Of a stretch of DNA of 64,000 nt, positions 157-53,194 are shown piece by piece. Position 1 is the stretch's first letter; each line of letters opens with the position of its first letter. Source of the stretch: Medicago truncatula (Eukaryota; Streptophyta; Magnoliopsida; Fabales; Fabaceae). The position numbers were made by a program, and so were the translations under genes. The DNA lies in assembly GCF_003473485.1 (NCBI RefSeq), contig NC_053042.1:12482501-12546500 (forward strand), given 5' to 3'. The notes under the pieces are model-generated. The model ran no database searches and had not been told where the DNA came from. It worked only from the letters and a program-made list of their open reading frames with translations.

Positions 157-1359
157 TTATTCCAGAAAAGGTTTGCAAAATTGCAAACTCAGCTCTTCCA
201 CTTTTCTTGCAACCTTAACTCTTCCACCTTTGTATAGTCCACCAACCACAGATTGATAGCTAGCGAGATGAGGTTGGACACCACGTTTTATCAGCACACA
301 CAAGGCTCGTTTAGCAGCTTTGACCTCATGTTCTGTACCTAATTCTAAAGTGGGAATACAAGTACTTGTGTTGATGTTTTCTATTGCCTTCAATTCTCTA
401 AACATGGCAATTGCTTGTTTAAATTGACCGGTGATGCAATAGCCATAGATTAGACGGTGATGCAAGCCACGATTACGCATAACTCGTTTGTTCTTAACAA
501 CTATTTCAGAAAATAAAGCATAGGCTTCGTTTACAAGTCTATCTTCGCAGAGCCTAGATATGACTTTTGCATACACCACCATGAGGCGAACAAAACAAGT
601 AACAGTATCATGTTCACATGGTCGCTGTCTCAACAAGTGTGTGGCCATTTTAATTTCTCCTATCCCACATAAACAATGAATTAGAATATCATAACTACAA
701 TCGTCCAACTCAAAACCCTTTAAGATGGAGTAATTAAAAAACATAATTGCTTTAGAAATCTGGCCTCTATCACATAAACCTTGTAAAAGATAATTCAAAG
801 TGGAAGCAGTAGGACGATGACCGGCTTTAATGATATTGTGGAATAGACAGAAAGCCGAGGACATGTTACCAGTGGCACAATGACAGTCGATGAGGATTTT
901 CCAAGTATCAACGTTTGGGAAAACATTATTATGGGTTTGGGATTCGTCCCACAGACGACCAAGTCTAAGAATAGTATCAGACAAACCCTGGGAGCTAAGG
1001 GAAGATAAAATGTAGTTATAATCAGATATGGAATAGAGACCCCTAGTACTAGTAGATAGCATGGATTTGAACTGTGAAACAGCCATACCTGTAAGCTCGC
1101 ATGAGATAACAACCATAGGATTAATATTGTTAGACTTAGAGGAGGATGATGATGTTGTAACTGGGGGAGAATTTCGGAGATTTTTTATAATTTCTCCAAA
1201 AACAGAGGATGTTGTTGAATTTGAGGAGAAGGAACGAAGGTATGAAACACAAGGACAAGAAGGAGGAAACAATTTGTTGTTGTTTTTGGAAATAATAGAG
1301 ACAGAAGAGGAAGCATAGTACCTTATTAACCTTGACAACATTGTTGTTTGTACTGTCAT
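157..1359 (-). CDS. RFL-type pentatricopeptide repeat protein (short, degenerate)
   Basis: This is an intronless 400-residue frame. The first 55 residues are rich in Ser, Arg and Asn with few acidic residues, like a mitochondrial presequence. PPR repeats start near residue 145 (NVDTWKILIDCHCATGN) and recur about every 35 residues. The signature 'AFCLFHNIIKAGHRP', 'GLCDRGQISKAIMFFN' and 'VNEAYALFSEIVV' resembles the restorer-of-fertility-like clade, which binds mitochondrial RNA. It has far fewer repeats than a standard RFL protein (10-20) and its middle repeats are irregular, so it may be a decaying gene. The paralogue at 4626-5864 starts at the second Met (MLSRLI, position 1341), so the start may be 1341 rather than 1359. 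Family is clear; function of this copy is not. Confidence 0.8.
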   Translation of the reverse strand: MTVQTTMLSRLIRYYASSSVSIISKNNNKLFPPSCPCVSYLRSFSSNSTTSSVFGEIIKNLRNSPPVTTSSSSSKSNNINPMVVISCELTGMAVSQFKSMLSTSTRGLYSISDYNYILSSLSSQGLSDTILRLGRLWDESQTHNNVFPNVDTWKILIDCHCATGNMSSAFCLFHNIIKAGHRPTASTLNYLLQGLCDRGQISKAIMFFNYSILKGFELDDCSYDILIHCLCGIGEIKMATHLLRQRPCEHDTVTCFVRLMVVYAKVISRLCEDRLVNEAYALFSEIVVKNKRVMRNRGLHHRLIYGYCITGQFKQAIAMFRELKAIENINTSTCIPTLELGTEHEVKAAKRALCVLIKRGVQPHLASYQSVVGGLYKGGRVKVARKVEELSLQFCKPFLE

Positions 1360-1410
1360 GTATGTTTTGCAGTCAACACAAGACAGATTGTTCTACCGTA
1401 CGGCTACCAG

Positions 1411-3091: not shown

Positions 3092-4164
3092 TGGATAATT
3101 CTCACATGCATGTTTATGGCCGTTGGAATCTTATTTGGAAGTTTAAAGTGTCTCCTAAAATCAAGAATTTTCTTGGCGTTTATGTCATGGTTGTTTTTCA
3201 ACACGCGCTTGCCTAAGTAGTAGAGGAGTCTCTTGCCCAATTGAATGTGTTCAATGTAAAAACAATTATGAAGATAGCATTCATATTCTCATTGAGTGTT
3301 CTAAAGTTGTTCAAGTATGGCGGAATGCGAATTTATGGGACACAATTGACAGGGTGATTCGTCAAGATTATAATAGTCATGCTCTCATATTCACTCTTTT
3401 GCAGTATCTTTCTTCAGGGCAATGTGAACTATGTCCACAATTATGGGACACGGATTGATAACTAGCAAGATCAGGTTTGACACCGCGTTTTATCTGCACA
3501 GAATAAAACCAATTCGTAGGTATCTCAACGTGCAACTCAACTTCTAGAAGAATGGAGAGCAACCCAAGTTATTAGGCCTTGCAACAGCACCCAAACCACC
3601 GTACCACAGGTGCGACCCATAAGGCAAGAAAAAGATAATTGGAAGAAATCGGCACCTGATAGGTATAAATGCAACACTGATGCATCATTTTCCTCTTCTC
3701 TTAACTGGGTTGGTCTGGGCATGTGCCTTAGGGATGACGATTGTGCTTTTGTTCTTGTAAGAACGAAATTGTTTGCTCCTCTTTGCAATATAGACGTGGG
3801 GGAGGCTGCTGGTTTGCACACAACTATTGATTGGATTTCCAATCAACAGTTTGACAGCGTCGATTTTGTTCTTGATTGTAAAAGAGTTGTTGATTGTGTT
3901 AATGCTAGCCTAGATGATAGTAGCGAATTTGGGTGTATTATTACTGCTTGTAAACAGTTGCTAGTGGTGTAAACAACTGTTAGTGGATAGATTTCAGAAC
4001 TCTCATGTCGAGTTCAACAGGAGGCAAGCAAATAGGATAGCTCACGAGTTAGCTGATGCAGCCATGTCTAATCCTAGCCCCCATATTATTGATGATGTAC
4101 CTACATTTATTTGACATATTTTAGCTAATGAAATGCAATGAATTTCTTCCTTAAAAAAAAATAA
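3092..4164 (+). mobile_element. 5'-truncated LINE (zf-RVT and RNase H remnants)
   Basis: Positions 3120-3430 encode, with frame breaks, a zf-RVT domain (LIWKFKVSPKIKNF, then SCPIECVQCKN, then DSIHILIECSKVVQVW). Positions about 3610-4112 encode an RNase H-like domain (CNTDASF, GMCLRDD, GEAAGLHTTIDW, then RQANRIAHELADAAM in another frame). This order is the C-terminal end of plant L1-type LINE ORF2. The element ends in an A-rich tail near 4153-4164 and is bounded by 14-bp target duplications, so it inserted already 5'-truncated. It has several stops and frame changes and is dead. A 53-bp foreign segment lies inside it at 3449-3501. Confidence 0.85.
3449..3501 (-). pseudogene. 53-bp fragment of the RFL-PPR 3' end inside the LINE
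   Basis: On the minus strand this encodes IKRGVKPDLASYQSV, matching the last PPR repeat of the 4626-5864 gene (IKRGVKPDLASCQSV). Base by base it matches the complement of about 5708-5760 with three differences in 53. It lies between the zf-RVT and RNase H parts of the LINE, where no such sequence belongs. It is most simply explained as filler DNA copied from the neighbouring gene during break repair. Confidence 0.85.
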
Positions 4165-4178: not shown

Positions 4179-4625
4179 AATTACTCTCGTGACCTGTTCG
4201 GGAAGAAGTGTCTCGCGACAACGAATATTATCTATAAGAAAACACATTGCACAAAGGTGAAAAATCAAAATAAATGAAAGAAGGCTGAAAATATGTGGAA
4301 ATCATTTATTTAACTAAAGTAGAAAAGAAAAATTTGAAGGGTGATTTCAAGTCAAAATTGAAGCTAAATCATCCTCTTTGTTAGGTCAACAAGAAGAATT
4401 ATGGTGACGGCTAGGATTTGAGAAAGAGAAAAGAAGTGAAAGAGTCGAAGGTCATATATGGTTTCAAATACAATAAAGGAGTATATATTATTTAACCATT
4501 AACTATAACATTTTTCATTAAAAAATATTATATAGTAGGGGTTAGCTAGGGTAGCGGTAGTAATCTTGAATCTGTGTTGTTACTTCTGTTGTGCGCAAAA
4601 CATACATTCAGTGCAAACAACAACA

Positions 4626-5864
4626 ATGTTGTCAAGGTTAATAAGATATGTTGGTACCTCTTCTGTTTCTGTTTCTGTTTCTGTTTCTTCTTCTATTATT
4701 ATTCCCAACAATAACAAGCTGTTTCCTCCTCCTCGTCCTTTTGTTTCATACCTTATTCGTTCCTTCTCTTCAAGTACAATTACAGAACCCTTGTACTTTA
4801 ATCTTGAAACTCTTGATCATTTTTCTGCTATTCGTATATTCGATCTGATGCTCGATTACGATGGCTTCTATTCCATATCCGATTTTAACTTCCTTTTTTC
4901 TTCCCTTATCAAAAAGGGTTGCCTCTTGACTGTTTTTCAACTTGCTCAACGATGGGAGGAATCCCTATCCCGTAAGTGTTATGATCGTGTATATCCAAAC
5001 ATTGATACTTGGAAAATCCTCATCAGTTGTCACTCTAAAAAAAAATCAGGTAACATCTCTTTTGCTTTCTCTCTATTCCACAGAATAATTGAAGACGGTC
5101 ATCGTCCTACTACTTCCACATTGAATGATATTTTTCGAGGTTTATGTCTCAGAGGCCAGATTTATAAAGCAATTATGTTTTATAATTACACCATACTAAA
5201 GGGTTTTCAGTTGAACCTTGAGACTTATTCTATTATAATCCATGGTTTATGTAAGATAGGAGAAACTAAAAAAGCAATACACTTTTTGAGAGAGGCACCG
5301 CAGATTCACAAGGAACAAAATAATGGTTTATGTGAGATTGGAGAAACTAAAATACCCTTTCACTTTTTGAGCGAGGCGGAGCAGGAGGAAGATGAATTTG
5401 AGGATATGTATGATGCGATCATAATCACACTCTGCATGGAAAGACATATAAACGAAGCCTATGATTTATTTTCTGAAATGATTGTTAAGAAGAAGATCAT
5501 ACCTTGTAATGACATATATTGCTGTCTAGTCTATGGCTATTGCATCACTGGTCAATTTAAGCAAGCAATTGCCTTGTTTAGAGAATTTGGGGAAGCACTA
5601 AGAATAAGAAACATCGGTGCTTTAGATACAGAACATATACAAGATGTGAAAGCTGCTAAATTTGTTACAGAACAAGAGGTGACAGCTGCTAAAAGAGCAG
5701 TTGCTGTTCTGATAAAACGCGGTGTCAAACCTGATCTTGCTAGTTGTCAATCCGTGGTTGGTGGACTATACAATGGTGGAACAGTTAAAGTTACAAGAAA
5801 GATGGAAGAGTTGAGTTTGAGATTTTCTGTTTGTTTTCTGGAAAATCATTATTACTTAGGTTAA
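4626..5864 (+). CDS. RFL-type pentatricopeptide repeat protein (short, degenerate)
   Basis: Intronless, 412 residues from the ATG at 4626. That start is chosen because MLSRLIRY matches the paralogue at 157-1359, and the frame upstream has no ATG. Residues 1-50 form a Ser/Val/Ile-rich presequence with a simple run of SVSVSV, consistent with mitochondrial import. PPR repeats include NIDTWKILISCHSKK, AIMFYNYTILKGFQLNLETY and INEAYDLFSEMIV. Two internal oddities are visible: a repeat core is duplicated (GLCKIGETKKAIHFLREA then GLCEIGETKIPFHFLSEA), and a short tract near residues 340-360 is repeated (DVKAAK, then EVTAAK). About 420 residues is short for an RFL protein; whether it is functional is uncertain. 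Confidence 0.8.
   Translation: MLSRLIRYVGTSSVSVSVSVSSSIIIPNNNKLFPPPRPFVSYLIRSFSSSTITEPLYFNLETLDHFSAIRIFDLMLDYDGFYSISDFNFLFSSLIKKGCLLTVFQLAQRWEESLSRKCYDRVYPNIDTWKILISCHSKKKSGNISFAFSLFHRIIEDGHRPTTSTLNDIFRGLCLRGQIYKAIMFYNYTILKGFQLNLETYSIIIHGLCKIGETKKAIHFLREAPQIHKEQNNGLCEIGETKIPFHFLSEAEQEEDEFEDMYDAIIITLCMERHINEAYDLFSEMIVKKKIIPCNDIYCCLVYGYCITGQFKQAIALFREFGEALRIRNIGALDTEHIQDVKAAKFVTEQEVTAAKRAVAVLIKRGVKPDLASCQSVVGGLYNGGTVKVTRKMEELSLRFSVCFLENHYYLG
5242..5390 (+). repeat. Internal tandem duplication within the PPR gene
   Basis: The segment around 'ggtttatgtaagataggaga' (5243 on) recurs from about 5324 as 'ggtttatgtgagattggaga', a period near 81 bp, in frame. It duplicates the first helix and turn of one PPR repeat. 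The paralogue at 157-1359 has only one copy, so the change is specific to this gene. Confidence 0.7.
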
Positions 5865-9323: not shown

Positions 9324-12300
9324 TTAATATCGATTCTTAAATTCCTGCAAAACAATACGTGCAGCATTTCTTCCCGGTGCGCCCATGACACCCCCTCCAG
9401 GATGAGATCCACTTCCACATAAATACAGGTCTTTGATTGGTGTCTTATGATTTGACCTATTCCAAAAAGAAAGGGAAAAAAACATTTCCTTATCCTACAA
9501 TATCATTTTGATTTAAGCCAAATATGAAATTTTCTATAGCATTTCATGTACCAAACAAACATACCAGCCTTTGACAGGTCTCATCACGAAAAGTGAATCC
9601 AAACCCATAGCACCATGGAAGATATTTCCTCCTGCACACATTTGCTAATTTCAGTTAAATAATATAAAAATATTGTACTTCAATACAGAACATGTGATTT
9701 TATGAAGACTGGGAAAAATTGAACATAATTTAATTTAGTAAAATATTGAACTTCAAAAAGAGTCTGTAGGGACATCATTTTCATTTTCCTTTTTTAATTT
9801 TTAAATTGAATAAAACATGGGAGCTGAAAGCAAAAAAAGGAATCAAAGGATAATGCAAAATCAAGAGGAGAATATTCAACCTAGCTCTATCATATGAATG
9901 ATGAGTCCAAGACAGAAGAATAGAGAAACCCTTGCCAAGTTAGGCAAAATATGATTGGGATTGACAGTAACTACTAAGAAACGAAGAAGTTTAGTTAAAT
10001 AATAACCTATTAACCCTGTGCCTAACATGGCACTACCCTTCAATGGAGAACTTCCAAATAAACTCTTGGAAGTCAAAGCAATCGATAGTTTTGACACAAT
10101 AGTTTAACGCGAAATTTAAGGATGGTTTCACAATACTCCGCTTCTTGTGATTGCACCATGTTATTAGGAACCCAGCTGTCTCAACTACATATTCTTAGAA
10201 TTTGGAAATATGAGTCTCTCAACACAGTCCCTTGCAGCCAAGACTAAATGTCTAGAGTGCGTGTTTGTTTGACTAGACTTTGCGACCGGTTCAAAAGTTT
10301 GAGTCTAGACACATAATTTATTTCAAAAAAATGAAACCATATGCTAAACCAGTGACATATAATTTAAGGCTGAGCTAATGATATCTCATTATATCATATT
10401 AAGTAGTTAACTAAGCAAAACACTTGTTTGCTTTCTTGAAGATTTGCTCGGTTGTCATTTGTCGATATTTTATTGGAATGACATGATTAAGACCATGGAG
10501 AAGGACAGACAAATTGAGGTACACATAGTTCAAACCTTTTTTTTTTAACAAACTGGTTCAAACCTTTTGTTCAACCATACATGGGAAACCAAATCAACCA
10601 ATAAAATGTAATAACTATGTTGAACTGCAAAAACCACTCAATTAGGTTTGCACCGTAAATAAGTTATATAATCTCATGAGACCGTTCACCTATTGTCAAA
10701 TAAGGAAACTACTCTATAAGGCACATCGTATGTGACATTTTATCTTCCCATTCACTAAAACCATCTCAAATCATGACCAACATGAGTATTGAGTTTAAAT
10801 AAATCTTAATAACTGGTGCAGGCAGGATAAAAAGCAAGAATGAAACTTCTTAATAGTCAATATAGTGTATAATCTTCCAATTGTCACATAAGTTTCAAGT
10901 TTCTACATGAAGATTCTCTTGATCATTTTTCCCAGGCCAAAAGAGGTGTAGACTTCATACTGTAAAAGGTAATTCAATAATCTAAAGGCTTATTATAATA
11001 CACTATCAATAATCTAGTATATCACTTAATTGCTACATAAGTTACAAACTATGATACGTTCTAGAAAATTATATCAATTTTTTTTAAAACAATGCAAGTT
11101 TGAAGCATCTAAAAAATATAGAAAAAGAAAACGTGATAAATCAATAACTATAATATGTTATTCACAATAAGGCACTTTCGTAAAAGGATACCATAAAAAT
11201 GTTACCATGTCAAATTCTTAGTGTTAGTCTTTAATTATACAGATTAATTTTGTAGATTACCTGTCAGTCCAATTTCCCTTTCCAAATCTGGTGGTGTTAG
11301 CATGTCATAACCTATGACGGATGAGCAGAAGCCAGGCGCATGTTCTTCAATCAAGTTAAAACATCTTTGTGCATATGATTCCTACAGTTGACAATTAAAA
11401 TAAATTGCTGCAACTGTTTTTAAATTCCAAACAACTAATTACCCATGCTAGAATGAATAAGAGAATTCAATAATGAGGTTAATAGAGGAACATCATGGAC
11501 TATTCATTTATGTGTTGAATACATATAAACAAGATCAGAAAGATATACTACCACTGCATTGTTTCTCAGAAAATAACAATTCAATGAATTATATAAGATC
11601 ATTTGTGCAAGTGCAACTTACTCTGTATGCAGCATTGTCCCAGCTACCGTTTGAGGGTTTGTAAGGTGTATATTGCGTAAATAAGCTGATGACATGCTTA
11701 CCTACAAGACAGCACATATGTTGACTGCTGCACTATTTTAATAATACATAAATATGAAGCATACCTAAATTGAAAAAAGGAGCCAAATTCAATAAAAAGA
11801 ACATGTAATAAAACATTGGAATAATTCTTAATAGTCAACATTCGTATTGTGTTCCTCTGATCCATGACTAAAAGATTCTGTCTCCGTGAAAAACATTTTT
11901 GTCGCAGGTTTGCTTTCTATATTTCAAATGATTATAGGTGAAGTTCTTGAATTTTCTTTCATGGGATTCCTTTGTAAAATAAGAGAATTGAACTAAAAGG
12001 TGTTAGTCAAGAAACAGCAAAACAGGTTAATCTATTTGATACTCCGCTTTATTACCAACACCGATCGGTGCAAGTGGAAGGAGCTTGACTCTCCTTAAGT
12101 GAATCCACTGGGTTCAACTAGAATTAATTGGGGTCTACAGTGATATAGGTCAATATTGTTAAATAGCGGCCAAAGCACCGCCATGATATAATGGCGCGGC
12201 AGATTTTTTGACAACTGCCAGAGGCCACAATTGCATGTTTATATGGAGGATTTTTGTCCTTCACCATCGACAACTCTGATATCGCATACTGAAGGTTTCA

Positions 12301-15300
12301 AACTAAAATAACAAGATCAAATGATCCTATTTTCTCTATGTGAAATAGATGAAGGGTAGTTGAGACTTATGATGTCATACCAGGTGGAGATATGGTGTCG
12401 TCCAATGAAGAAGGGATTGTCATCTCCATCACAGGCCTTTGTGATGGTATGCCATTACAAGCATCTTGGCAAGCTGATATAATCTCCTCCATACTGGAAT
12501 AGCAATCGATATAAAAGGAAATACAGTAGCTAAGTTTCAACTATTATTACTATTATCACATAAGTATAACGCTAGCACTTGACCATGGGAATAATCTCAA
12601 AATTTCCATTATTTAACTGAATAAAATATCCAGTACAACAATAGTAGCAAGTCTCTTAATGTTTGGTATGCCAAAACAATCTCTGTCCATTATATATTCC
12701 TAAACATGCTAAATGCTTTTGCTGACAGCTAGGGGTGTCAATGGGGATTTTTCAGAGCGGATCCCCGCGGGGATTCCCCGCTTGGGGCCCCAGATTCGGG
12801 GATTTTTTGCCCCGCGGGGACGGGGCGAAATGTTCCCCCGTAAGCACTTCGGGGCGGGGATCAGGGAAGTATCCCTCGCCCCGCGGATTCCCCGACCCCG
12901 TTAAAAATACAGTAATACCCTTGCATTTTTAAAAAGTCCTATTATTTTCTATTGGTTTTTTGGACTTTTAATATAGTTTTATAAAATAAAAATTAGAAAA
13001 AAATATATAATGTTTTTAGTTGTTACTGGAGAAACTCAGTCTCATGAGTTTGGAGAAACTCAAACCCTAGCTGCGCCTCCATTTTCCCATTTCAGCATCT
13101 CCATCTCAATCACAGATCTCAGGCCTCTCAAATCTCAATCTCACGCCTCTCGATCCTAGCCTCCTCCTTGTCAATCTCAATCTCAATCTTGGCCCCCATT
13201 TTCACTCTCGGCCTCTTAACTCGCTCTTTGTCTTAAAATCTGTAAGTTTTCCTCTCAATCTCAAATTTAATCTTATATTTACCTCTGAGTTAGTTCGATG
13301 TTTATAGATTCTGTTAAAACTATGCAGTTCATGTCCAAAAAAATAATTCTGTTAAAATTTTGAGTAGATTGTATCTTTCAAATCCAAAAAAAATTATGCA
13401 TTTAAGATTTATGCTGTTAAGATTATGTTAAAATGATGCAGTTTATGTCCAAAAAAATTATGTTAAAATCAGTTCATGTCCAACAAAATTATGCTGTTAA
13501 GAATATGTTAAAATTATGCAGTTCCTATGCTGTTTGCTTACTATGTTTAGGTACGAAATTCTGTTCATGTTTAGATTCTGTTTGCTTACTACCTGAGTTA
13601 GTTTGATGTTTATAGATTATGTGAATGATTAGATTTAAGGCTACTATTTTTGTGAACTGAATCTATGTTTGCTTACTATTTTTGTCCAACTTCCATTTAA
13701 CTTTTTTTCCTTCTGTGTGTATGTGAAGGTTTTTACCTTTGAGTTAGTTCGATGTTTATAGATTCTGTTAAAACTATGCAGTTCATGTCCAAAAAAATAA
13801 TTCTGTTAAAATTTTGAGTAGTTTGTATCTTTCAAATCCAAAAAAAATTATGCATTTAAGATTTATGCTGTTAAGATTATGTTAAAATGATGCAGTTCAT
13901 GTCCAAAAAAATTATGTTAAAATCAGTTCATGTCCAAAAAAATAATGATGTTAAGAATATGTTAAAATTATGCAGTTCCTATGCTGTTTGCTTACTATGT
14001 TTAGGTACGAAATTCTGTTCATGTTTAGATTCTGTTTGCTTACTACCTGAGTTAGTTTGATGTTTATAGATTATGTGAATGATTAGATTTAAGGCTACTA
14101 TTTTTGTGAACTGAATCTATGTTTGCTTACTATTTTTGTCCAACTTCCATTTAACTTTTTTTCCTTCTGTGTGTATGTAAAGGTTTTTATCTAAAAATGG
14201 CTATTGAAGAAGTTCAATCATTTGATGTTCCACCGACACAAGAAACTCAAACGATTCTGAATCAGACCAATGTGGAAAGTCAAGAACGTGAAGCTGTTCG
14301 TGAGCCCAGCGTAAGTCCTAACCAAAGAGGACTCAAATCTGATGTTTGGTCCCATTACAAAAGGCAGAAGATAGACGGTGTATTCAAGGCTATATGCAAA
14401 GAATATAAGAAAAAACTTGGTGAGAAAGGAAATGGTAATACTCATTTACGGGACCATCTTTGCATACGTGCAGCTCGCAATAAAAGAAGTCCAACACATG
14501 CCTTGCTAAAAACGTCTGAAGTGCCGGGAAAGAGTAAAGAATCATTCGTGGCTGGAACTTACATTTTTAATCAAGATTTTTCTAGAACTGAACTTGCAAA
14601 GATGATTATTCTTCATGAATATCCCATCATGATGGTTAACCATGTTGGTTTTAGAAGTTTTATACATTCTCTTCAACCTTTGTTCAAGATACCTTCTCAC
14701 AATAACATGAAGAATGACATCATGAAGTTGTATGAAAGCGAGAGGACAAAGTAAATGAATTCACTTGGTAAGAATAAAAGTCGCATTGCGATAACTACGG
14801 ATATGTGGACTTCTAGCAATCAAAACAAAGGGTATATGGTTGTCACAGCTCATTACATTGATGAAAATTGGAATTTGCAGAATAGAATCAGCTTATGTGA
14901 TGTTTACTTCATACTATAATTTAGATTCATTATGTCTATATTTTAGGTTCATTTATGTGTTTGCACCACATATTGCAGAAGTGATCGTTGATTATTTGTC
15001 AAAATGTTTGTTTGAATGGAATATTGATAGAAAATTTTCAATATTAACCATTGATAATTGTAGCAACAATGATGCTTTAATTGATTATGTGATTAATAAG
15101 ATTGGACTTGTGTCTTTTGTTTTGAATGGTGAATTGTTTCATATGCGTTGTTGCGCCCACATCTTAAACTTGATAGTTAAATATGGCATACAATGTTATG
15201 AAACAGTTCACCATTCAAAACAAAAGACACAGGTCCAATCTTATTAATCATATAATCAATCAAAGCATAATTGGTGCTACAATCATCAACGGTTAATGTT

Positions 15301-18300
15301 GACAATTTTCTATCAATATTTCATTCAAACAAACATTTTGACAAATAATCACCAATCGCTTCAGCAGTATGTGGTGCAAGCACATAAATGAACCTAAAAT
15401 AAGGCAATGCATAAGTAAACATCACATAAAATAACCATGTTAAATTAGAATATTTACCTCATGATTTGATTCTGCAAATTCCAATTTTCATCAATGTAAT
15501 GAACTGTGACAGCCATATACCCTTTGTTTTGATTGCTAGAACCACATATCAGTAGTTATCGCAATGCGACTTCTATTCTTACCAAGTGAATTCATTTGCT
15601 TTGTCCTCTCGCTTTCATACAACTTCATGATGTCATTCTTCATGTTATTGCGAGAAGGTATCTTGGACAAAAGTTGAAGAGAATGTATAGAACTTCTAAA
15701 ACCAACATGGTTAACCATCATGATGGGATATTTATGAAGAATAATCATCTTTCCAAGTTCAGTCCTAGAAACATCTTGATTAAAAGTGTAAGTTCCAGCC
15801 ACGAATGATTCTTTACTCTTTCCCGACACTTCAGACAATTTTAGCAAGCCATGTGGACTTCTTTTATTGCGAGCTGCACGTATGCAAAGATGGTCCCGTA
15901 AATGAGTAGTACCATTTCCTTACTCACCACCAAGTTTCTTCTTACAGTATTTCCATATTGCCTTAAATACATCGTCTATCTTCAGCCTTTTGTAATGGGG
16001 CCAAACATCAGATTTGAGTTCTCTTTTGTTAGGACTTACACTGGGCTCACGAACAGCTTCGCGTTCTTGACTTTCCACATTCATTTGATTCAGAGTCATT
16101 TGAGTTTCTTGTGTTGGTGGAACATCATTGGATGATTGAACTTCTTCATTAGCCATTTTTAGATAAAAACCTTCTCATACACGGTTGGATTTTTTAAAAA
16201 CGTAAGGGTATTACAGTATTTTAAACAGGTCGGGGAATCCGCAGGGCGGGGGATACTTCCCTGATCCCCGCCCCGAAGTGCTTACGAGGGAACATTTTTC
16301 CCCGTCCCCGCGGCGCAAAAAATCCACAAATTTGGGGCCCCGAACGCGCTCTGAAAAATCCCCATTGACATCCCCAGTGTTTAAGGCTTGATATAACATA
16401 TCTGGTAGTTTAGTTGTTTCCCATTATCTTGAGAAAATTATTGTGAAATAACTAAGGAAGGAAGTGTGTACAGATTTAATTTGGGACACAAAAAATATGG
16501 GGATCCGCGGGGATGGGGAACGAATTCACCAACGGGGCGAGGATTGGGGAAGTTCCCCCGTCCCCGATCTGCCCTATTGACATCCCTACTGACTGCAATG
16601 TCAACTGTATGGTTACAAAATAATGGCAGGTTACAAAATAAATAATGGCAATGAATCCAAACAAAAGTTAAAAGATTTGTCTTTCAGGTCTTATGCATAT
16701 ATTAGCATACCTTTCAAAACCAATATGGATCGTAGCAGTATGTTGTGGACCTACTTCTGTATTATTTATCTTGAAACAGGGAAACTGAGGCAGCTTATCA
16801 ACAGCTACATTGATTTTTGTTGTTCCCTGCTCCAAATGATGAGAGAATCAAGAACATAAAACGAGACAACTCCAAGCAAACAGAAAATTTCTATTTAACC
16901 AAAGCATATATGAATGCCAAATGTTAAATGCTCCCAGAGAAATGGTCTATGGTTCAAAGAACTTTATTCTTCAAAAGAAAAATCTCTTTTACCATTCAAC
17001 ACAAATTACTTCCAAAGATATTATCTGGTACGGTGCCGGCAAGACCAGTAAGAAGGATTTGGATTTAAATTCTCTCTCATTTTATACGTTTTATGATAGC
17101 ACATTATGCCGTTATCTGATCCGTATAACTTATCCAACCAAATTAAGAAAAGGCTATCTTGGTTGTTTTGTAGTTTATCTAAAAGCAACCCCTAACAATA
17201 AAAACTCTCATGGCATTACTCTGCTTTGTTCAATAATAGTAAGTACAAAAAAAATTAAACTATTACGGCATTACTCTGTTTTGTGCATTCAGTTATGAGT
17301 GAATATTAACAAGAAAAACTAAATATTCATGCCTAAATGGCAAATTGCACAACAGAAGAAAATGCTGAAAAACAAAAACAACATAAAGCCAATATTCTTG
17401 AAACAAGTACCGAGATTTTTCTCAAAATAAAAATTTCATGTTCAACAGAAAGTATCTTACAGAGCTGTAGTCGGAATGCTTAATTGCACAAAGAAATTCA
17501 ACAGGAAGAAAATCTCGAGGTACCAGTTCCTGCCAGACAAATCCAGCATTCGGTACTTAATATTTGACTATTAGCAAGTATTGTAAATTATTGTGAATCA
17601 TGACATGAAATTTAAAACTGCTTACCATAAAGGTCTTATAAGGAGTTGCATTAGACAAAACAACTGAAGAGTGCACTTCAGTCCCATCAGCCAGCAATAC
17701 CTACAAAATCATCAGTGAAGCATAATTAACGATAGAATATTATAACAAATTGTTTTGTATGTTAAAAGCCAAATCAGGAAGCAAGCCAACTCACTCCATT
17801 TGCCCTGCCAGATTCTGCCACCATCACCTTTAAAACCTATTTCAGTGTTGAACGATGAGAGACCGACACGAAGATGGGATAACAATTACAATGCTGGAGA
17901 AAAAACTTGTTTCATTTTTTTCTCTATTGAAGTTACTCTGACTAATACTTTTAAATCGAATAAATGAAAACCCGTTAAATACATTCTTATGTAGAAAAAC
18001 AAAATCAGACACCAACGTTATAATAGGGCTCACGAGAAATCTTGCAACTACCAATAAGAAGGATAGGGGTCGCAAGAAACAAACCTCTTTATCTGTTTCA
18101 ATATGAACACCTGCTTCTTTAGCAGCTCTACATATAGCTAAGGATACTGCACCCATACCACCCTCTACATGCCTGCATATGGATGAATTGAAATTAAAAA
18201 ATAATTTCTTAATAATTGGTCGAGACTAACATATATGCATGCCTGGCTTCTGAACCCTAAAATTGATAATAAAAATGTTTCAATACCAATTAAACAAAAC

Positions 18301-20755
18301 AGAGTAGATATACTCACGACCAAATATTACGATCACCGTCAGTTTCACCCATTATGTGGTGTAGCAAAACATATCCACTTCCAGGAGTGTTGATGTTCAT
18401 CTATTAAAAAGAATTAGAAAAGAGCATGAAATAAGATGAAAAAGATTGGTAGCACAGGCTGATAAGTACCAATACAAAAAAAAGAGTGCTAAACAAAAGA
18501 ATGATAAAGCAGTCTCCGTGAGCACAGCTCAGTTGGTAGGAACATGCATTGTTATATGCAGGGGCCGGGGGTTCGAACCCCGGACACCCCACTTATTCAC
18601 TTTGAAAAAGGTGAATTCTAGCCACTAGGCTACCTGACCAAAAAAAAAAATGAGAAAGCATGCATGTAAAAAGAAAGCATATTGTTTTTGAATAAGTGTG
18701 CATTCTTTCAAAACATGTCTAACTAAGATGCTAACTATATTAGAGTAAACCCTGCAAAAAAAATTAATAAAACAGAAAACTCTTACCATACTCCCAATGA
18801 TAGCATCTCCTGCAAGTGTTCCCTTCAACAAATTTGACTGCACTCCGAGATTATCGATAAATATTAGGAAGATTGAAGGCCATATTCATTGTTCAAGTGA
18901 AAAATGCTTAACATTTGTTCATAAGTCTGTACCTGTGAAAAATAATAAATTATTGAATACTTCCAAGCTACAGGAGGAAATTAACGTAATAAACAAACTA
19001 ATTGATTTCAGTAATAAAAAACATGTTGAAAAGTCCTCCAGAGTCTTGCTTGATTTAAGTTATTACAAGTGTATAGACAAACTTGAATAAGTTAGACAAA
19101 AAATTAAGTGCAATAATCTATACAACATAACATCATTAACATATTGAAGATACTATATACCAAATTTATTATGCAATAATTAAGTAAGTAACAACCTCAA
19201 ACCATTTGTCCAGGACCTTCGAGGTTGGAGACAGTAATAATTCCATTAAGTCCCTGGAGAAGCATTTTCCTACAAATTAGATTTTAAGACAATCTCCATC
19301 CTCCAGAAGATGGATTTGCAGTTCCAAAAACTTATAAGCACAACAGAGAGATGATCTTACACCATGCCCTTTTGACCCAAGGAGAGAGTATGCCCCAGAC
19401 ACTGAGCCCAAAACTTAGATCTCTGCAATTTATGCCTCAGCAAGTCAACTGTAGAAGCACTGCCATGCAGAATTTCAGGGGTAGGCGAATCCAAAACGAA
19501 ATCTAGTAACTTACTGAACTTCTGGAGTTGAGCTTCATATCTACAATTACCAACACGAGAAAAATAAAAGTGTTCACGTTAATTACAACAATTGAACTAT
19601 TTCAAATCAAAACACCATTATAACTGTTTGGTTACACACTTGGACTTCAGAAACTTCGAAATGTAGCAGAGCCATGCCTAAAGCAACAAATCCGTTTTTA
19701 CATCTTATAAAGACTTTTATTGCTGAGAGAAGGCAGTCCAATGAAATGCACATTGCACTAAATAAGACATCGATAACAAAATGTCAAGTTGGTTTTGTTA
19801 AAATTTTAGAACCAAAACAATCAGCAACAGAAATGTTATTAAAAAACCATTTCTTTTTCTCCCTTTTACATTATCAGTTTAAATATTCAACATTATACAC
19901 AATGGCATCAAATCAACCTCCAAAGCAATAGCAGTTGGCACTTTTAGCATTTGCCAAAAAAGCCAAATCCTTCACCTTTAGTGAAAATTGCAGGACTAAA
20001 TTGACTGATTCGAAACTCGGTCGCACCGACATGTCCGGACACATGTGATTACATTCACTTTAGTAATTTTCGTTCAGTGCTTCATAGATTCAAAATAAGT
20101 ATTAAAGTACCTGAAATAAGCATCGGCGTCTCTTTTGGAAAACTTAGAAATCTCAGAATGATCCATCTCATCACTCTGTCCTAATAGCAAGTAACGCCCA
20201 TCCAACGACGGTGTAAACGACGACGCCATCGGTTTCAACAGCTTCAACCCGTGTCGTTTCAACTCCAACTCTCTATCATTTTCAAATCCACCAAAACACA
20301 CAAAATGAGCTTAAACAACAAGAAATAACATTTTTTATTCGTTGATTATATAAGAAGTATTGTTGTATTCCTTCTTGTAATCAACAATTCTCTCATGTTA
20401 TTTACTCAAATTATTATCGATATTGAAGTGTCGTGTTCGGTGTCCATAAATAGTGGTATGATCAAATTGGAATGGTGCATGAAGTTACGTGCCTTATGAT
20501 TTGAGGACGGAGGAGGCTGAGGAGGTAGCTGCAGCGAGAGAACTTGAAGCCAGCGATTATCTCCTCCGTGACAGCGGCACCGCCGATAATGTGACGGCGT
20601 TCGAGGACGGCGACTGAGAGGCCAGCGCGAGCTAAGTAAGCGGCGGAGATCAAGCCGTTATGACCACCGCCGATGACGATCGCGTCCCATTTCTTCTTCT
20701 GCTTCAATGCTGACGTGGCGACGGTGGAGGTTGTTAAGGTTCTTCGCCATATCAT
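9324..20755 (-). CDS. PYROXD2-like FAD-dependent oxidoreductase (16 exons)
   Basis: Exons: 20493-20755, 20111-20272, 19361-19540, 19196-19253, 18787-18837, 18318-18400, 18085-18172, 17795-17827, 17626-17700, 17461-17529, 16711-16826, 12381-12493, 11622-11701, 11261-11381, 9565-9631, 9324-9456. They total 1692 nt and give 563 aa, near the family length. Residues 1-22 form a Ser/Thr/Arg-rich presequence, then [12 protein letters not shown] (FAD Rossmann motif, 25-35) with Glu52 at the end of strand 2. The C-terminal [20 protein letters not shown] is the second FAD-binding motif. The family is phytoene-desaturase-like; the animal member is mitochondrial and its substrate is unsettled. Exon 8 is only 33 nt. 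All junctions fit GT-AG except exon 1, which fits a GC donor better (the GT alternative ends at 20489 and re-enters at 20268). The intron between exons 12 and 11 carries a 3.86-kb hAT element. Confidence 0.9.
12145..12240. repeat. Dispersed 'gttaaatagcgg' repeat, copy 1
   Basis: The 'attgttaaatagcggc' start recurs near 37000, 39207, 51908 and 51985. It lies in the intron between exons 13 and 12 of the oxidoreductase gene. Interior sequence is diverged; class unknown. Confidence 0.4.
12722..12729. repeat. Left 8-bp target duplication of the hAT element
   Basis: 'ctgacagc' here pairs with 'ctgactgc' at 16589-16596, 7 of 8 matching. Eight base pairs is the hAT duplication length. Confidence 0.65.
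13020..14196 (+). other. Leader and 5'-UTR intron of the hAT transposase gene, with a 454-bp tandem duplication
   Basis: Positions 13020-13241 look like an untranslated exon (CT-rich, 'aaaccctagctgcgcctcc') ending in 'aatctgtaagtttt', a good donor. The matching acceptor is 'atgtaaag' near 14182, just before the ATG at 14197. Inside, 13280-13733 is repeated at 13734-14180 with period 454 and few differences, seen by 'tagttcgatgtttatag' at 13291 and 13745. The complementary arm has lost nearly all of this region. Confidence 0.65.
14197..15225 (+). pseudogene. hAT transposase fragment, BED finger and start of the DDE domain
   Basis: The frame starts MAIEEVQSF and includes a BED-type region ([20 protein letters not shown] ... 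[12 protein letters not shown]), then [23 protein letters not shown] and [15 protein letters not shown] stop follows at 14752-14754 where the other arm has Gln, and reading resumes with [21 protein letters not shown] second stretch encodes [18 protein letters not shown] and [15 protein letters not shown], the standard hAT sequence after the first catalytic Asp. In the BED finger only the first Cys of the C-x2-C pair remains (CKEY). The third catalytic residue and the dimerisation region are absent. Confidence 0.8.
15200..16156 (-). pseudogene. hAT transposase fragment, opposite arm
   Basis: Read on the minus strand from ATG 16156: [19 protein letters not shown], then [19 protein letters not shown]. 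The BED pair is WKYC, with the second Cys kept and the first lost. After a stop-bearing gap ([11 protein letters not shown] resumes near 15907), [20 protein letters not shown] and [20 protein letters not shown] follow. It extends through the same first-catalytic-Asp region as the plus arm, broken, and stops at the fold-back centre. It is not a simple copy of the plus arm: many silent and replacement differences are seen. Confidence 0.75.
16589..16596. repeat. Right 8-bp target duplication of the hAT element
   Basis: 'ctgactgc', partner of 12722-12729. Confidence 0.65.
18500..18660 (+). mobile_element. tRNA-derived SINE with target duplication
   Basis: The body, 18512 to about 18648, has a tRNA-like head: A box 'agctcagttggtagg' and B box 'ggttcgaaccc'. 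A non-tRNA part and an A10 tail follow. It is flanked by 'aatgataaagca' (18500-18511) and 'aatgagaaagca' (18649-18660), 11 of 12 alike. It lies in an intron of the oxidoreductase gene. It does not fold as a complete tRNA, so it is not called a tRNA gene. Confidence 0.8.
20005..20100. repeat. Dispersed 'accgacat...gtgcttcatag' repeat, copy 1
   Basis: 'gtcgcaccgacatgtccgga' through 'cagtgcttcatagat' recurs, diverged, at about 24155-24295, 28105-28245, 39470-39610 and 54185-54265. It is a short gene-associated repeat of unknown class. Here it sits in an intron. Confidence 0.45.
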
Positions 20756-21021: not shown

Positions 21022-21093
21022 GGTCCCATGGTCTAGCGGTTAGGACATCAGACTCTGAATCTGGTAACCCGAGTTCAATTCTCGGTGGGACCT
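21022..21093 (+). tRNA. tRNA-Gln (anticodon CUG)
   Basis: A 72-nt cloverleaf. The acceptor stem GGTCCCA pairs with TGGGACC. The D arm is GTCTAGCGGTTAGGAC. The anticodon stem TCAGA/TCTGG closes loop CTCTGAA, placing CTG at 34-36, which reads the Gln codon CAG. The T arm contains GTTCAATTC, which is also the B box. Seven or more T residues follow and act as the Pol III terminator. It lies about 270 bp upstream of the oxidoreductase gene, divergent from it. All stems pair, so it looks functional. Confidence 0.95.
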
Positions 21094-25567: not shown

Positions 25568-26118
25568 CTTAAATATAGGGATGGCAATTGGACCTAGACC
25601 CAATGGGTACCCGTAAAAAATATCCATAATAGGTAGGGTAAAATCCCGTTTTTATGGATATGAGCACAAGTAAGGGTACTATACTGCCCAGACTCGCAAC
25701 CCCGCATATACATATTTATATAATATCATAAATTATTTATTTATTTTTTATGTATAATTAATTAATTTATTTAGCTATTTAAGCCTAAATCTAAACTTAA
25801 ACCAAACAACTGCTTAATACAATAACAACTCCATCATGTTGGTGTATAATTTTTTAAGGATATTTTGGATATTTTCTATTTGACTAAATACCACGATTCA
25901 TATTATTTTATGAGTTAATTTTAAAAAATTGGGATCGTAGTTTTATTTCATTTGTGATGTTTTTTTTGTTTTTTCATAGTTAAAGTGCGGGTATGGGACT
26001 AAAGTTGTTGCCCATGAGGATACGGACACGGGTACGGGTATTTTTTATAAATGCGGGTATAGGGACGGGCACTATAGTACCTACCTATTGGGTACCCATT
26101 GTTATTCCTATTTAAATA
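25568..26118. mobile_element. Non-autonomous hAT element (535 bp)
   Basis: The body is 25576-26110, with ends 'tagggatggcaat' and 'attgttattccta'. The next blocks are also inverted (cccaatgggtaccc at the left, ttgggtaccca at the right). The flanks 'cttaaata' and 'tttaaata' form an 8-bp target duplication, 7/8 matching. No transposase frame is present. Confidence 0.7.
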
Positions 26119-32710: not shown

Positions 32711-33758
32711 TTTTGTTTTCTGAAGTGCAAGCTGGTTGTGTTGTGTTGTTAACTAGTTATAGTTAAGAAAGCAGACACAAACTACTATGTCTTTTTTTAT
32801 GCTTAATGAGCAAATCATAATCATAAATAAACCATTATTTTTGGAAAATGAGAAAATTTGAAAAGTGAAAAATAATAATAATGGACAAAGTTTTGCAACT
32901 CAAAAAGTGAAATAAATTAAAATAACTGTGAAAGAAATTCTGTCTGGACTTGACACTTTGACATTGACTGTCATCATTGCATTTTGCTTTGAATGGATGG
33001 ATTATTCTCTCTCTTTCTCTTTATTGAATTTTGTTTCTTTTTCTTTTTTCAAATACTGTGTGTTTGTTCCTTATTAGCAAAAAAAAAAATACTAGTTTTT
33101 TTTTTTAAACACTAGGTTATATTTTTATTGTAATGTTGATTTTTTTTATACTCAAATTAAAAATATATATTAACAAAAATTGGATCTAACTAGTTAGACT
33201 CTTACAACATGATAAATCATTGTTTAAATTTTAATTATCAGAACTATTCATATTTAGTGTTTGAACTGTTTTAAATAGGATTCTTCTAATAAAAAAAACA
33301 TAATAAAAATCCATAAAAATAGATAATTTACTATCATCGTTGAAGTAAGTAGTCAAGAAAAAGGATTATCATCGTCCATTATACATTTATATCAATAAAG
33401 AATAATGTTGGTAACATTCTATCACAAATTTTTCAACACATTTTCTTTATTGATTTAAATTAATAAGACCTTCATTCAATTTATGTTAATCACTTAGTTA
33501 CTGGTCCTTAAACAATTTTGATTTGAGCATCTTTCCAAAACTATTCTCCTTACATTATTACTTAATGCTCATTAATACGAGCTGGCTTAGCAGCTTTTGG
33601 TCTCTTAGGTGAGAAATTATTGCAGCTTTGTGATGCATAATGTATCATTATGTTTATTTTACGGGTTTCCTAACTAACCAGACAAATGTCCACAAATTAT
33701 TGATTGATTACAAAAATGAAAGAAACATTCTCCCTGCACGTCAAATTAAAGTCATTTA

Positions 33759-33903
33759 CTCCCTCCGTTTTAAAATATAAGCAAAATTCACTTTTTAAAT
33801 TCATTCATTTTAAGGATGTATGTGGTTCATAATATGGACCACATACATCATTAAATGAGTGAACCTAAAAAGTAAATTTTGCTTATATTTGAAACGGAGG
33901 GAG
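33759..33903. mobile_element. Stowaway-type MITE (Tc1/mariner)
   Basis: 145 bp with inverted ends 'ctccctccgttttaaaatat' and 'atatttgaaacggagggag', flanked by TA on both sides. The two halves are largely complementary throughout. Confidence 0.9.
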
Positions 33904-35011
33904 TAGTCATGTTTTCTCACAAAGTGTCAATTTATATTTTAAAATTTTAATAATTAATTTTTTTTAATAAATACTCATTATTTATAGAATCTTTAATATA
34001 TTCTTTAAAATACATGTTAGCGTAACTCAAATAATAAATATATAGTTTTTTAAAAAGCAAAATTGATAAAAATTGATAATCATCTAATGTCTACCATAAA
34101 TTTCACAGTGAAAAATTGCAGATCATGTTTTGAAGAATAACAAAGAATAACACAAAGATATATATATCAGGCCAATTTAGAACGTGGATCTAAATATTTC
34201 TAAAAATTCACATTCAAAAAATATATATTCAACCGTTTCATCTCTTCCACAACCTCGTGCACATAAAAGTGAGCCAGAGTATGAAATATGGTACAAATAG
34301 TCATTGGATAGATTGAACAATATGTACTACATGATTGTTTGCATTTGTTTGAACATGATCTCTTTTTTATCCCTAGCTTTTTTAGAGAATCATATCATTG
34401 TACTTTAGAAGATCATTCTACACCTAAGATAACAAAGCTTTGAGACTTGATATTCAACTTGATCAATTTAGAGGATCTTTGTATCCCGACGATTGCTTTG
34501 AATTCTATGTGGATTAATCAGAGGATTGTTCATGTCATACACTTGATTTCGACTTTCTTATCTTTAGGTTATTCAATGAATTGTCGTGTCCAAGCGATTG
34601 ACTTTTACATGCATATGTGCTTATCATACAGAGGATTACTTATGCACAGACAATGTGTTTAGCTGATTGTTGACTTTGTGTTGACTAGATAATTAGTTGC
34701 ATATCTTTAATTTAACTTGACTTGAGCTTGGTCGTCTTTTACCATGTGTTCATACTCTAAAGGTTCAGTGTGCTTCTGATAGTTTGGATTCCTTGATTCT
34801 TCTAATAATACTGTGTTTAGCTAGTTATACTTGATGATTGTTGAGACACTAAAATCATGCACACTTGAACACATAGTAGATAAATTATTCCTTCCTATGT
34901 TAACATCAAAACATCATATGATGTTCCTTTGATTTGTTATCATCAAAATATACGGTGTGAAGCATTGTGACAAAAGCAAATTGTTTCTAACAATCTAACC
35001 CTCTTCACAAA

Positions 35012-39092: not shown

Positions 39093-42000
39093 TGGATTAG
39101 CTAAACTAGAAGAATAATCAGTTTTTTACTAAGATAACTAGTAAAATCTCTTTTGAATCATTATGATATGCACACACTTGGAAAATCTCATTCACACATG
39201 TTATAGGTAGTGTTGTTAAATAGAGGCTCTGTAGCATTGTTGCGTAGCCGAATTTGAATGAACTGCCATTTTGTGTAATCTGCGATTGAAAACACAAGTT
39301 ACAGGCGCTGTTTGATATTGGAATTAACTCAAACTCGTAAGGCAAGGAATGTCCTAGCTTTATAAGCACTTATTAAGCACTATCTGTTGCAGTCAATGTG
39401 GGACTCGTCTTTTCCAATAAAACCACACTACATCGTGTTACAACATAACTTTTTTAGAACTATAAAACATAGACACAAACATGAAGACACCAATAATAAT
39501 TTAATAAAATAGAAGTGTTGGAATGTAACCATAGGTGTTAGTTTCGTACAAGTGTCGGTCACTGACAAATGTCAAACACTCGGACACGCCTTCAATTTGA
39601 AGCGTCGATGTAACATAGATTTAGAAAAATGGAGGTCGCAAAAATAAAACTCTAAGGCCAGATTCTCTTGAAATCTTAAGCTATTATGCAAAGTTACCGT
39701 CATGAGATGCCCCATCGACATATTGTATGTATAGAGATTTAAATTGTTCATTTTCCATCTCGAATCTTGCTAGATATGCTTAAATTTGTTGGCTAGCATA
39801 GTTGCACCATCTACCTAGTCCTATAAAAATATCTGTATGATCCACGACGCCATGCCGAATTGGCAATAGTTATAGAATGTTTACCTGCGTGGGCAACTGA
39901 TCTTGTAAGAACTTCAACTTCAACTTGTCTAAAAAATTTCTTTTGTTTTAGTTTGCATTTTAGCTAAATATATACGGGGAATACATTTCAGATAGTAAAT
40001 TTCTTCTTAAGGTTGCTAAGTTTAATTCTTAACTATCTAGCACAAAGTCTAGCATTTCCTATTTGGCTGCATTTCTTTTGACAGGAAGGTGATGACATAA
40101 GAAAAGAAAGAAAAAGGTTGTCAAACAGGAAATCAGCTAAAAGATCAAAGATAAAGAAACAGGTACATACTAGACCATGACTGGTGCAATGCAGCAGGTT
40201 TTGTGGTTCCGTTATAAATAGTTATCCTCATAATTACAGAAAATATTGAAATGTCTATGAATTCGATAATGGTTTAATCGCACATGATTAAAATGTAAAA
40301 AGAAAAAGATGCTGGTTATTTTCATTATTGGATCTCATCGTTTAGTCCCAAAAAGTTTTTTTTTTCAACTCCTCACTCTAATTTTATTTAATAAATTATT
40401 AAATGTTATGCTGATCTAATTAACTTATTAAGTAATTGAGATAGCATAAAACAGCTGTGTTTGGTTGATGTCCTATTTTTTCTAATTGACTTTTTATCAC
40501 TTTCTTGTTTCTATTTTCCTTTGCTTTTTATCATGACCTTATGTCCTAAACATGCATTTAAATGGCAGTGACAAATACAAAATTAATCACGTGCCTACCC
40601 AATATACTTGTACCTATTTGGAATTTTAAAACCACCTATTTATTAAAGCACATAACAGAACTCTAGGAGCTAAGCTGCATTTTAGACAGTAATGGATATA
40701 CTGACAACTATTGAGAGCTAGATAGCAAAATATCCAAGAAACGATGTTCTTAACTTGATTGGTTATGCCACATGGCCAGCTAAGTTGATCAAAAGGACAA
40801 ATCAGGTCTTAGTTTCCTTCATTGATGATCAGTTTCAATGACATGTTTATATTAACAGTATAATTTTTTAAAAAAAACGTAAACTAATGGTTTCTTTTTT
40901 ATCGACTTATATTCTTAACAACCTTTCCCTTTATTTGGAACATGATTGTAGGTACATGATTATGATTATATATGATAGGGCTTTATGTCATCGATTGATC
41001 CATGTAATTTGAATCCACCTAGTGCTAAAAGAGCAGACTTTTGTTGTTATTGTTGTTGTATGATCATAGGATCTTGGCTTCCCAAACAGCCAAATATTAT
41101 CTTCCATTACTATTGTGGAAGTTGAAAATTTTACTTGTGCTTCTTGTTGACGTTTCTTACATCTCTTGTGAATTTGTTGTAGTTTCCTCCTGGATTACAT
41201 AATTTATAAAACTTTATCATGTTCTTGAACTTTGTATTTCATTTGATGTTCTCATTATTTGTGCCTTGCCAGCAAGAATGTGAAGAGCTATATAATAAGA
41301 TAGACACTCTTAAGGATGAAAATTCTGTCCTAGCACAAACGCTAGCTAAGCTTTCTGAGGAATGTCTGGAGCTTGCCAATGAAAATGATTCCATTGAGGT
41401 CCATCATTTTAACTCCCCTCTTTATTTGTTCAGTTTTATATCATTCATTCAACTAAGATACTTGTTTTGGTTGAGAAAATATTTTCTGTTTTCGCTTTTC
41501 ATTAGAAAAATGCCATCTTGTTTTCTAATATTTGCATGAGAAACAATTAAATAAACTAAAAACTAGGTGATACTTTCGTAATTAATAAAAGGAAGAAATG
41601 AAAACTGTTAGGAGGTCAGGTGGAGTCGAAAATTGAAGATGAATCCCGTCAATTGGCAAAGAGGAACCCACAGTGTGCTTAACACCATATATCATCTCAA
41701 AATCTTAAGGCAATTATTATTAACTGATAGGAACTAATTCTGAATACAGAAAAAAATAGTATAAATTGATAGAAAAGTATCTATATAATAACTGAATCTC
41801 TCCCATTTCTAAAAAAGTAGGCCTCTCTAATCTCTTCTACCTATTATTTATAACCTATGATCTCTCTTTGTAACAAACTTTCTAATTAGGTAGTACAATT
41901 AATTATCGAAGTTACCTAACATGAAGGTAGGCAAGTTAATTTTGTTAGATGACAATTATTTATTTAAAGCTTCTGATATTGGTTTATGAAGAAGTTAGTT

Positions 42001-42145: not shown

Positions 42146-42332
42146 AACTCTGTGGTGGAGCCAAAAAATAGTTTAAGACAGGAAGCATATCAAAGTGTAC
42201 AATTCATTTTTTCTTTTTCTTTTCAAGAAATGTACAATTCTTTTTATTTGAATTTTTGACCCTGCTTTCAGTTTTTAATCAATATTTCACACTAGACACA
42301 ATGATTAGATTTGTAAATCAACATAAAAGTAA

Positions 42333-42717
42333 GGCTTAAATATGTCTTTCGTCCCTGTAAATATAGGCCATTTGAATTTTCGTCTATGAAGTTACTAATC
42401 ATTTCAATCTGCCCCTGCAAATATTAATCATTTGACTTTTGGTCCTAATTAGGTTTTTTTGCTGAGGTGAGCTGTCATTAGCGACGTAGTGCCCATGTGG
42501 CAAGTGATGATTGGGCGAGGTGGTTTGCTTAAACAGGTCTTTCATCCCTGCAAATATAGGTCATTTGAATTTTCGTCCCTGAAGTTACTAATCAGATGTA
42601 ATTAGGACCAAAAGTCAAATGATTAATATTTGCAGGGGCAGATTGAAAGGATTAGTAACTTCAAGGACGAAAATTTAAATGACTTATATTTGCAGGGACG
42701 AAAGACCTATTTAAGCC
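42333..42717. mobile_element. Fold-back MULE-like MITE (385 bp)
   Basis: The ends 'ggcttaaatatgtctttcgt' and 'acgaaagacctatttaagcc' begin long inverted arms, each over 120 bp, with 'tttgcaggg', 'catttgaa' and 'cgtccctgaagttactaatc' blocks. The family is common near legume genes. The right part holds both orientations of the motif, so the element is itself rearranged. No clear 9-bp target duplication was found. Confidence 0.7.
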
Positions 42718-51360: not shown

Positions 51361-51589
51361 TGTGCAATTTTCAGAAATTGATTCCTAGCAGTCAAAAAGT
51401 GGCGGTAGTGTGGGGAGATCTTGACTGCTGATAATATTGTGATGTTTAAAACTGATTTGTCAAATTATGATGTGGGCCGTTTGATCTTGCACGAGTGGTG
51501 GTGATTCACCCAGCTGCATGAATGCAATGGTCCAGTGGATCGAAACTGCAGAAAGTCCAGGTACACAATTTCCAGATTCGTCTATGGTA

Positions 51590-51835
51590 GACTTTTGGCC
51601 TTCAAGTATGGCAATTTTCAACAGTATGTAAGAGATTACCACATTACAAACGTGTATTTTGGAGCAGTGAAAGTGTGGAGAATAAATGCAGTAAGGGGGT
51701 GGAATCTCTGGTAGATTTACAGAATTCAATTTTGGTTCTCTCCACATGTGACATGGAAAATAATGGATATAATGTTAGCATGATTTGCTCATGTAATTTT
51801 GTATTTTTAAGTGTACCATAGTTTTTTAAATTAAA
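51590..51835 (+). repeat. PPR 3' flank, copy A of a direct duplication
   Basis: From 'gtagacttttggccttcaag' to 'tgtaccatagttttttaaat' this is matched by 53195-53430 in the same orientation, at roughly 85% identity by eye. Copy A lies directly after the PPR gene. Confidence 0.8.
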
Positions 51836-53100: not shown

Positions 53101-53194
53101 ATTTTCCAATTTTACATCATTCATTCAGCTAAGATACTTGTTTTGTCTTAGAAAATATTCAGCTAATATTTTCTAAAATTTTCAGATTATTCTA

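Follow-up and report, generated by a model that had tools for sequence, protein, structure and literature searches.

How a plant comes to recognise a transposon that is new to it is still an open question. Few natural triggers of transposon silencing are known, among them inverted duplications such as Mu killer. Here, we describe an intronic element of similar layout from Medicago truncatula, which fits a non-autonomous derivative of the hAT type and occupies 12730-16588 of a 64,000-nucleotide stretch (assembly GCF_003473485.1, contig NC_053042.1, positions 12,482,501 to 12,546,500 of the forward strand; hereafter the window, numbered from its first base).

According to the passages of PMC3440606 drawn on here, Mu killer is an internally deleted and partly duplicated MuDR, in which the transposase-side end is present twice and about 1.3 kb are duplicated in inverted orientation. 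Plants in which it silences were found to make antisense transcripts, which start from an undefined promoter within Mu killer, while transcripts reading through from the flanking gene occurred in plants failing to silence; minor longer transcripts may also act as hairpins, a point left open by the authors (PMC3440606). In the relevant passage of PMC8224964, the Mu killer transcript is described as a hairpin processed to RNAs of 21-22 nucleotides (nt). As well, a long inverted repeat of rice, whose arms measure about 1.3 kb and whose spacer is 343 bp long, was associated with 21-, 22- and 24-nt RNAs, and the authors interpret such repeats as probably giving the hairpin precursors of these small RNAs (PMC7649420, in part). 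Among hAT elements, the Arabidopsis MPF near FLC is non-autonomous, 220 bp long and flanked by an 8-bp target duplication, with abundant 24-nt small interfering RNAs noted in one ecotype (PMC2289841, in part).

The element of M. truncatula carries two transposase 5' halves, which lie on opposite strands and meet head to head (Table 1). A preliminary description of the locus had proposed this arrangement, and it was borne out by three alignments: BLASTN found 891 of 994 positions identical between the arms (90%, 29 gaps), MAFFT found 881 of 968 ungapped columns identical (91.0%), and an affine alignment of 12730-15145 against 16376-15195, which includes the GC-rich ends, matched 1058 of 1146 ungapped positions (92.3%) and contained 175 perfect 21-mers and 137 perfect 24-mers. 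The arm difference of about 10% given in that description holds when gaps are counted, as in BLASTN, whereas substitutions alone amount to 8-9%. The two arms are the longest inverted pair found by BLASTN in the window. Both are broken as genes, the left one by an in-frame stop (14752-14754) and the right one by nonsense changes as well as a gap of 2 bp in its frame, and the transposase 3' half is absent from both. The left-arm frame continues into the centre for 11 residues.

The element is 3,859 bp long and bears short terminal inverted repeats, TAGGGRTGTCAAT. Its outer termini, TAGGGGTGTCAATGGGG at 12730 and, on the minus strand, TAGGGATGTCAATAGGG at 16588, both fit the pattern TAGGGRTGTCAATRGGG with 0 mismatches, and they are flanked by an 8-bp target-site duplication, CTGACAGC on the left and CTGACTGC on the right, in which 7 of the 8 bases are identical. 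The termini agree to the base with the coordinates first proposed; an empty site would carry one copy of CTGACNGC. When up to 3 mismatches were allowed, the end pattern matched four times in the window and three of these matches fell within the element, against an expectation of 0.20, and 0 of 100 shuffles reached four. The element has three ends instead of two, since a second left end lies inverted between the outer left and right ends, and this inner left end has to be added to the preliminary description. This inner copy differs from the left end at 19 of 190 ungapped positions. Between it and the right end lies a filler, which contains no copy of the left host flank and matches the rest of the window only over 13 and 16 bp, at chance level. 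Outside the element, TAGGGATGGCAATTGGA at 25576-25592 (+) matches the end motif with 3 mismatches, precedes GGGTACCCG and is possibly an end of another hAT element or of a miniature inverted-repeat transposable element (MITE). Taken together, the structure is almost certainly as set out here.

The intronic position, also part of the preliminary description, was confirmed by the GT and AG borders of a 4,217-bp intron on the minus strand, on either side of which the exons join into one open frame. Subtracting the element and one target-site copy leaves 350 bp of intron. The host gene, which we take to be PYROXD2-like, was mapped by tblastn with a single homologue, a Sphingobium NAD(P)/FAD-dependent oxidoreductase. 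Exon matches lie upstream of the element at 20695-20495, 20271-20107, 19255-19196, 18391-18320, 18171-18082 and 16826-16776, and downstream at 12444-12379, 11381-11259 and 9632-9342. A candidate exon at 16405-16337 (tblastn group E 3e-6) was rejected, being out of order and overlapping the filler and the inner end, and a fitting exon was instead read by eye near 17530, through a stretch of 12 residues; another tblastn piece, 23194-23033, was set aside (E 6.3, outside the gene). Because the host exons are in frame around the element, the insertion seems to be tolerated. A tRNA-Gln (CTG) gene lies at 21022-21093 (+), near the 5' end of the oxidoreductase gene and on the opposite strand; in an Rfam scan of the window only a tRNA reached the gathering score.

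The full element has a predicted folding energy of -2053 kcal/mol on the plus strand and -2018 kcal/mol on the minus strand, compared with a mean of -894 (standard deviation, SD, 10) for 10 dinucleotide shuffles and of -867 (SD 75; lowest -1034) for 10 stretches of the same length from the window. Folding of 12731-16587, two bases short of the element, gave 904 arm-to-arm pairs on the plus and 894 on the minus strand, 175 and 173 pairs between the GC-rich ends, and 16 and 17 helices of at least 21 bp, respectively. Since the fold is strong on both strands, a long duplex is predicted for transcripts of either direction, which speaks for the earlier suggestion that transcription of the intron could yield long hairpin RNA. 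How such transcription would lead to silencing of relatives is plausible but not a settled route, because PMC3440606, in the part concerned, ties silencing to internal antisense transcripts. The Mu killer precedent invoked in the preliminary description accordingly has to be used with care: it holds for the layout and for the hairpin transcript (PMC8224964, in part), whereas one study linked silencing to the internal antisense transcripts and not to flanking read-through (PMC3440606).

Of the 1,231 bp at 12940-14170, 1,227 are missing from the right arm. In the left arm this region includes, as judged by eye, a candidate TATA box, a pyrimidine-rich putative leader and a candidate leader intron. 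The left arm thus holds a possible promoter of its own. As this apparent leader region is restricted to the left arm, that arm might also drive the hairpin, and transcription of the flanking gene would therefore not be the sole route. A 454-bp tandem duplication is also present in the left arm (13278-13731 and 13732-14185); it looks younger than the inversion, because its copies show 7 differences in 454 positions, compared with 85 in 1103 between the arms.

The element was assigned to the hAT type mainly by its ends, which we take to be like those of Ac, and by the length of its target site. A TTDMW motif, CxxH-like motifs and a 16-residue stretch in the arms are presumably hAT-like as well. 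The rearranged hAT transposon of the preliminary description is in this respect supported by the ends and the 8-bp target-site length, while the protein-profile evidence is weak. Pfam scans returned 0 families for the left arm at E up to 10 and 0 for the separate arm frames at E up to 1, and neither the RNase H-like catalytic core nor the C-terminal hATC region had a Pfam match in either arm; the 3' half is missing from both. Each arm is without one of the cysteines that we assume to be expected for a BED zinc finger. A PDB sequence search with the right arm gave only two matches (E 1 and 1.2), which are not credible, and an AlphaFold model of a left-arm piece had a mean pLDDT of 37.7, too low for use. 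No relative was confirmed among 19 pattern matches of the left-arm frame in viral_contigs or among 56 of the right-arm frame in genome_contigs, collections that by their descriptions hold viruses and prokaryotes, respectively, and no plants, and that are uninformative on plant copy number.

Across 286 codons (codons with gaps omitted), the arms are separated by 13.5 synonymous and 44.5 non-synonymous changes. The resulting dN/dS of 0.81 (bootstrap 0.46-1.83) lies within a neutral simulation (median 0.65, 2.5-97.5% range 0.37-1.29), which argues against two working lineages and suggests neutral divergence; two already dead copies would fit equally. Divergence is 4.6-4.9% in 14421-14890 and 9.6-10.0% elsewhere. 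Gene conversion homogenising the middle of the arms was considered and rejected, given that 23 of 200 permutations reached the observed segment score. Transitions are commoner at CG and CHG (27 of 142 sites) than at CHH (27 of 298 sites; odds ratio 2.36, P 0.005), and for CG alone against other sites the P value is 0.053; the transitions are unpolarised, and their excess at CG and CHG is as expected of methylated DNA. Those leaving a G-U pair number 29 on the plus and 25 on the minus strand (P 0.68), a weak test with 54 transitions only, and selection to keep pairing on one strand was not supported by any bias. Owing to the neutral arm divergence and the lack of strand bias, the element appears to show no sign of maintained function. 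After the gapped intron region (left 14892-14948) had been dropped, the core count gave 85 differences in 1107 positions, and a second count, which also omits a few aligned positions in 12940-14170, gave 85 in 1103. If neutral changes accumulate at about 7e-9 per site and year and the arms were identical at birth, this divergence of 7.7% suggests an age of roughly 5-6 million years.

On balance, the locus is probably an old inverted-duplication derivative of a hAT element that is capable of feeding Dicer and has no maintained silencing role. In the composite, a left end followed by one transposase half is joined to an inverted copy of this half, which bears a left end of its own, and then to the 121-bp filler and the right end; the whole may have arisen by aberrant copying, such as abortive gap repair or fold-back synthesis, with arms that were near-identical at birth and decayed neutrally over millions of years afterwards. 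RNA of the host gene (minus strand) or of the left-arm leader (plus strand) would form a long and almost perfect duplex, a likely Dicer substrate, and the main targets of the resulting 21-24-nt RNAs would be the locus itself and any close relatives that survive. Whether the locus yields some hairpin small RNA we regard as evenly balanced, silencing of relatives at the present day as improbable, and dedicated trans-silencing today as unlikely. Copying of the inner end in place past the left end was rejected: the sequence beyond it differs from the present host flank, and no simple in-place extension can therefore be assumed. The composite was either assembled at another site and then transposed whole, or the filler belongs to the element itself.

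Nested inverted elements occur as double Ds in maize, and two related elements may likewise have been nested in inverted orientation here before the centre was deleted, in which case the divergence of the arms would be partly older than their join. The extra inner left end, followed by sequence not copied from the left host flank, and the large indels between the arms are consistent with such an origin, which we nevertheless consider doubtful, since both arms end at almost the same transposase position around a centre of 49-53 bp, a rare outcome for random deletion. For the same reason aberrant copying is favoured over nesting with random deletion. Moreover, two active lineages should show purifying selection, at odds with the dN/dS of 0.81, although two dead copies would fit. 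A role as an active trans-silencer in the manner of Mu killer, in which hairpin small RNAs silence related hAT elements and which is selected now or was so formerly, would agree with the strong duplex predicted on both strands and with a layout near that of Mu killer, with its two transposase-side ends and a partial duplication, inverted and about 1.3 kb long (PMC3440606, in part). It is improbable, because the arms diverge neutrally, pairing-tolerant transitions reveal no preserved pairing on either strand, the symmetry was broken by the later 454-bp duplication and the 1.2-kb difference, and the target elements are not known. An inert relic, the intron being spliced and degraded so that the hairpin never reaches Dicer and the element does nothing, is a serious contender somewhat short of an even chance. 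The neutral decay of the arms and an insertion apparently tolerated, with host exons in frame around it, would suit such a relic; against it, small RNAs were about 89-fold more abundant in genic hairpins of maize, 76% of which are intronic, than in regions outside hairpins, but these hairpins are short (median 25 nt) (PMC10760457, in part).

The preferred reading of an old hAT derivative able to feed Dicer also has to face several points that weigh against it. The zf-BED profile was matched by the right arm only, with an E of 8.8e-4 and 19.7 bits, below the cut-off of 20.6, and one copy only of the element was seen. The exon piece next to the element upstream (16826-16776) has by itself an E of 1.6, and it was accepted because of the gene order and the in-frame splice to the next exon. 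The intron RNA may be spliced and degraded before dicing, the arms could stem from two separately decayed copies, and the excess of transitions at CG and CHG is common to any methylated transposon. In maize, hAT elements have low proportions of small hairpins according to the part of PMC10760457 considered here.

A bolder proposal is that the element is an intronic hAT counterpart of Mu killer, in which host transcription on one strand and the left-arm leader on the other would both yield hairpin RNA and an enzyme gene would constantly supply small RNAs against a transposon family. We consider this very improbable. No intronic hAT case of such layout was noticed among the open-licence PubMed Central papers listed by our searches. 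A hAT element with the Mu killer layout in an intron would make it possible to test whether such triggers have emerged repeatedly in different superfamilies and whether their transcription is kept up by ordinary genes. As a relic, too, the element shows an inverted-duplication rearrangement outside Mutator.

Table 1. Coordinates of the element, its parts and its host gene in the window
Feature	Position	Strand	Basis or remark
Host gene span, by matches to Sphingobium NAD(P)/FAD-dependent oxidoreductase	9342..20695	-	tblastn, both sides of element
Host intron	12494..16710	-	GT 16710-16709, AG 12495-12494
Left target-site duplication CTGACAGC	12722..12729		7/8 match to 16589-16596
Left end: terminal inverted repeat TAGGGGTGTCAATGGGG and GC-rich subterminal region	12730..12939	+	pattern scan, alignment
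Candidate TATA box TATAAAATAA of transposase leader	12980..12989	+	by eye
Candidate leader intron, GTAAGT 13242, AG 14181-14182	13242..14182	+	by eye; overlaps tandem duplication
Left arm: transposase 5' half, ATG 14197	14171..15145	+	BLASTN, MAFFT, affine alignment
Asymmetric centre between arms	15146..15194		49 bp as cut by affine alignment; 53 bp by other delimitation
Right arm: inverted transposase 5' half	15195..16182	-	BLASTN, MAFFT, affine alignment
Internal second left end TGGGGATGTCAATGGGG with GC-rich region	16187..16376	-	pattern scan, alignment
Filler, 121 bp	16377..16497		between inner left end and right end
Right end: terminal inverted repeat TAGGGATGTCAATAGGG and GC-rich region	16498..16588	-	inner limit approximate, by eye
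Right target-site duplication CTGACTGC	16589..16596		pairs with 12722-12729

Several other features were observed in the window. Two PPR-like open frames, at 157-1392 (-) and 4539-5864 (+), are inverted relative to each other and share about 76-77% identity along the longest stretches that match; Pfam PPR repeats were found in 4539-5864, the one of the two frames that was scanned. Open frames at 3159-3972 (+) resemble, by eye only, a retroelement RNase H tail. Smaller near-palindromes and inverted pairs at 33757-33905 and 42332-42718 (151 bp at 87%; 97-196 bp at 78-93%) are possibly MITEs, and direct repeats of 83-90% identity, 39973-41483 with 52166-53159 and 51567-51833 with 53177-53435, are perhaps duplicated genes or repeats.

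As to known systems, the rearrangement belongs to an already known kind, the inverted-duplication transposon derivatives. In maize, transposition-linked repair of Ac/Ds elements, which are of the hAT type, has given inverted partial copies, as in double Ds and the Ac/Ds gap-repair derivatives, and the present element would have a comparable origin. The long inverted repeats of rice share kb-long arms and a short spacer with the element, but small RNAs were measured there and a fold was predicted here, and the passages of PMC7649420 concerned make no claim of an intronic hAT element. Similar to the element, MPF is a hAT relic by a gene with an 8-bp target duplication, but it is 220 bp long, lies beside a promoter and has no large inverted duplication in the part of PMC2289841 that describes it. 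Mu killer, as far as the passages cited above describe it, is the closest in layout, being a partly duplicated DNA transposon with two transposase-side ends and an inverted duplication of the transposase 5' part, which spans about 1.3 kb compared with about 1 kb in the present element. However, it belongs to the Mutator superfamily, while the present element has an 8-bp target copy and short hAT-like ends; the latter is therefore no Mu killer by descent and may only work like one. Mu killer is flanked by amy4 and acm1 and not shown to be intronic, in contrast to the intronic element described here, and its central part was not sequenced completely in PMC3440606. The arms of the present element differ by 8-9%, and a right end is also present. 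Finally, Mu killer was newly arisen and shown to silence in trans, while its possible hAT analogue has a predicted hairpin.

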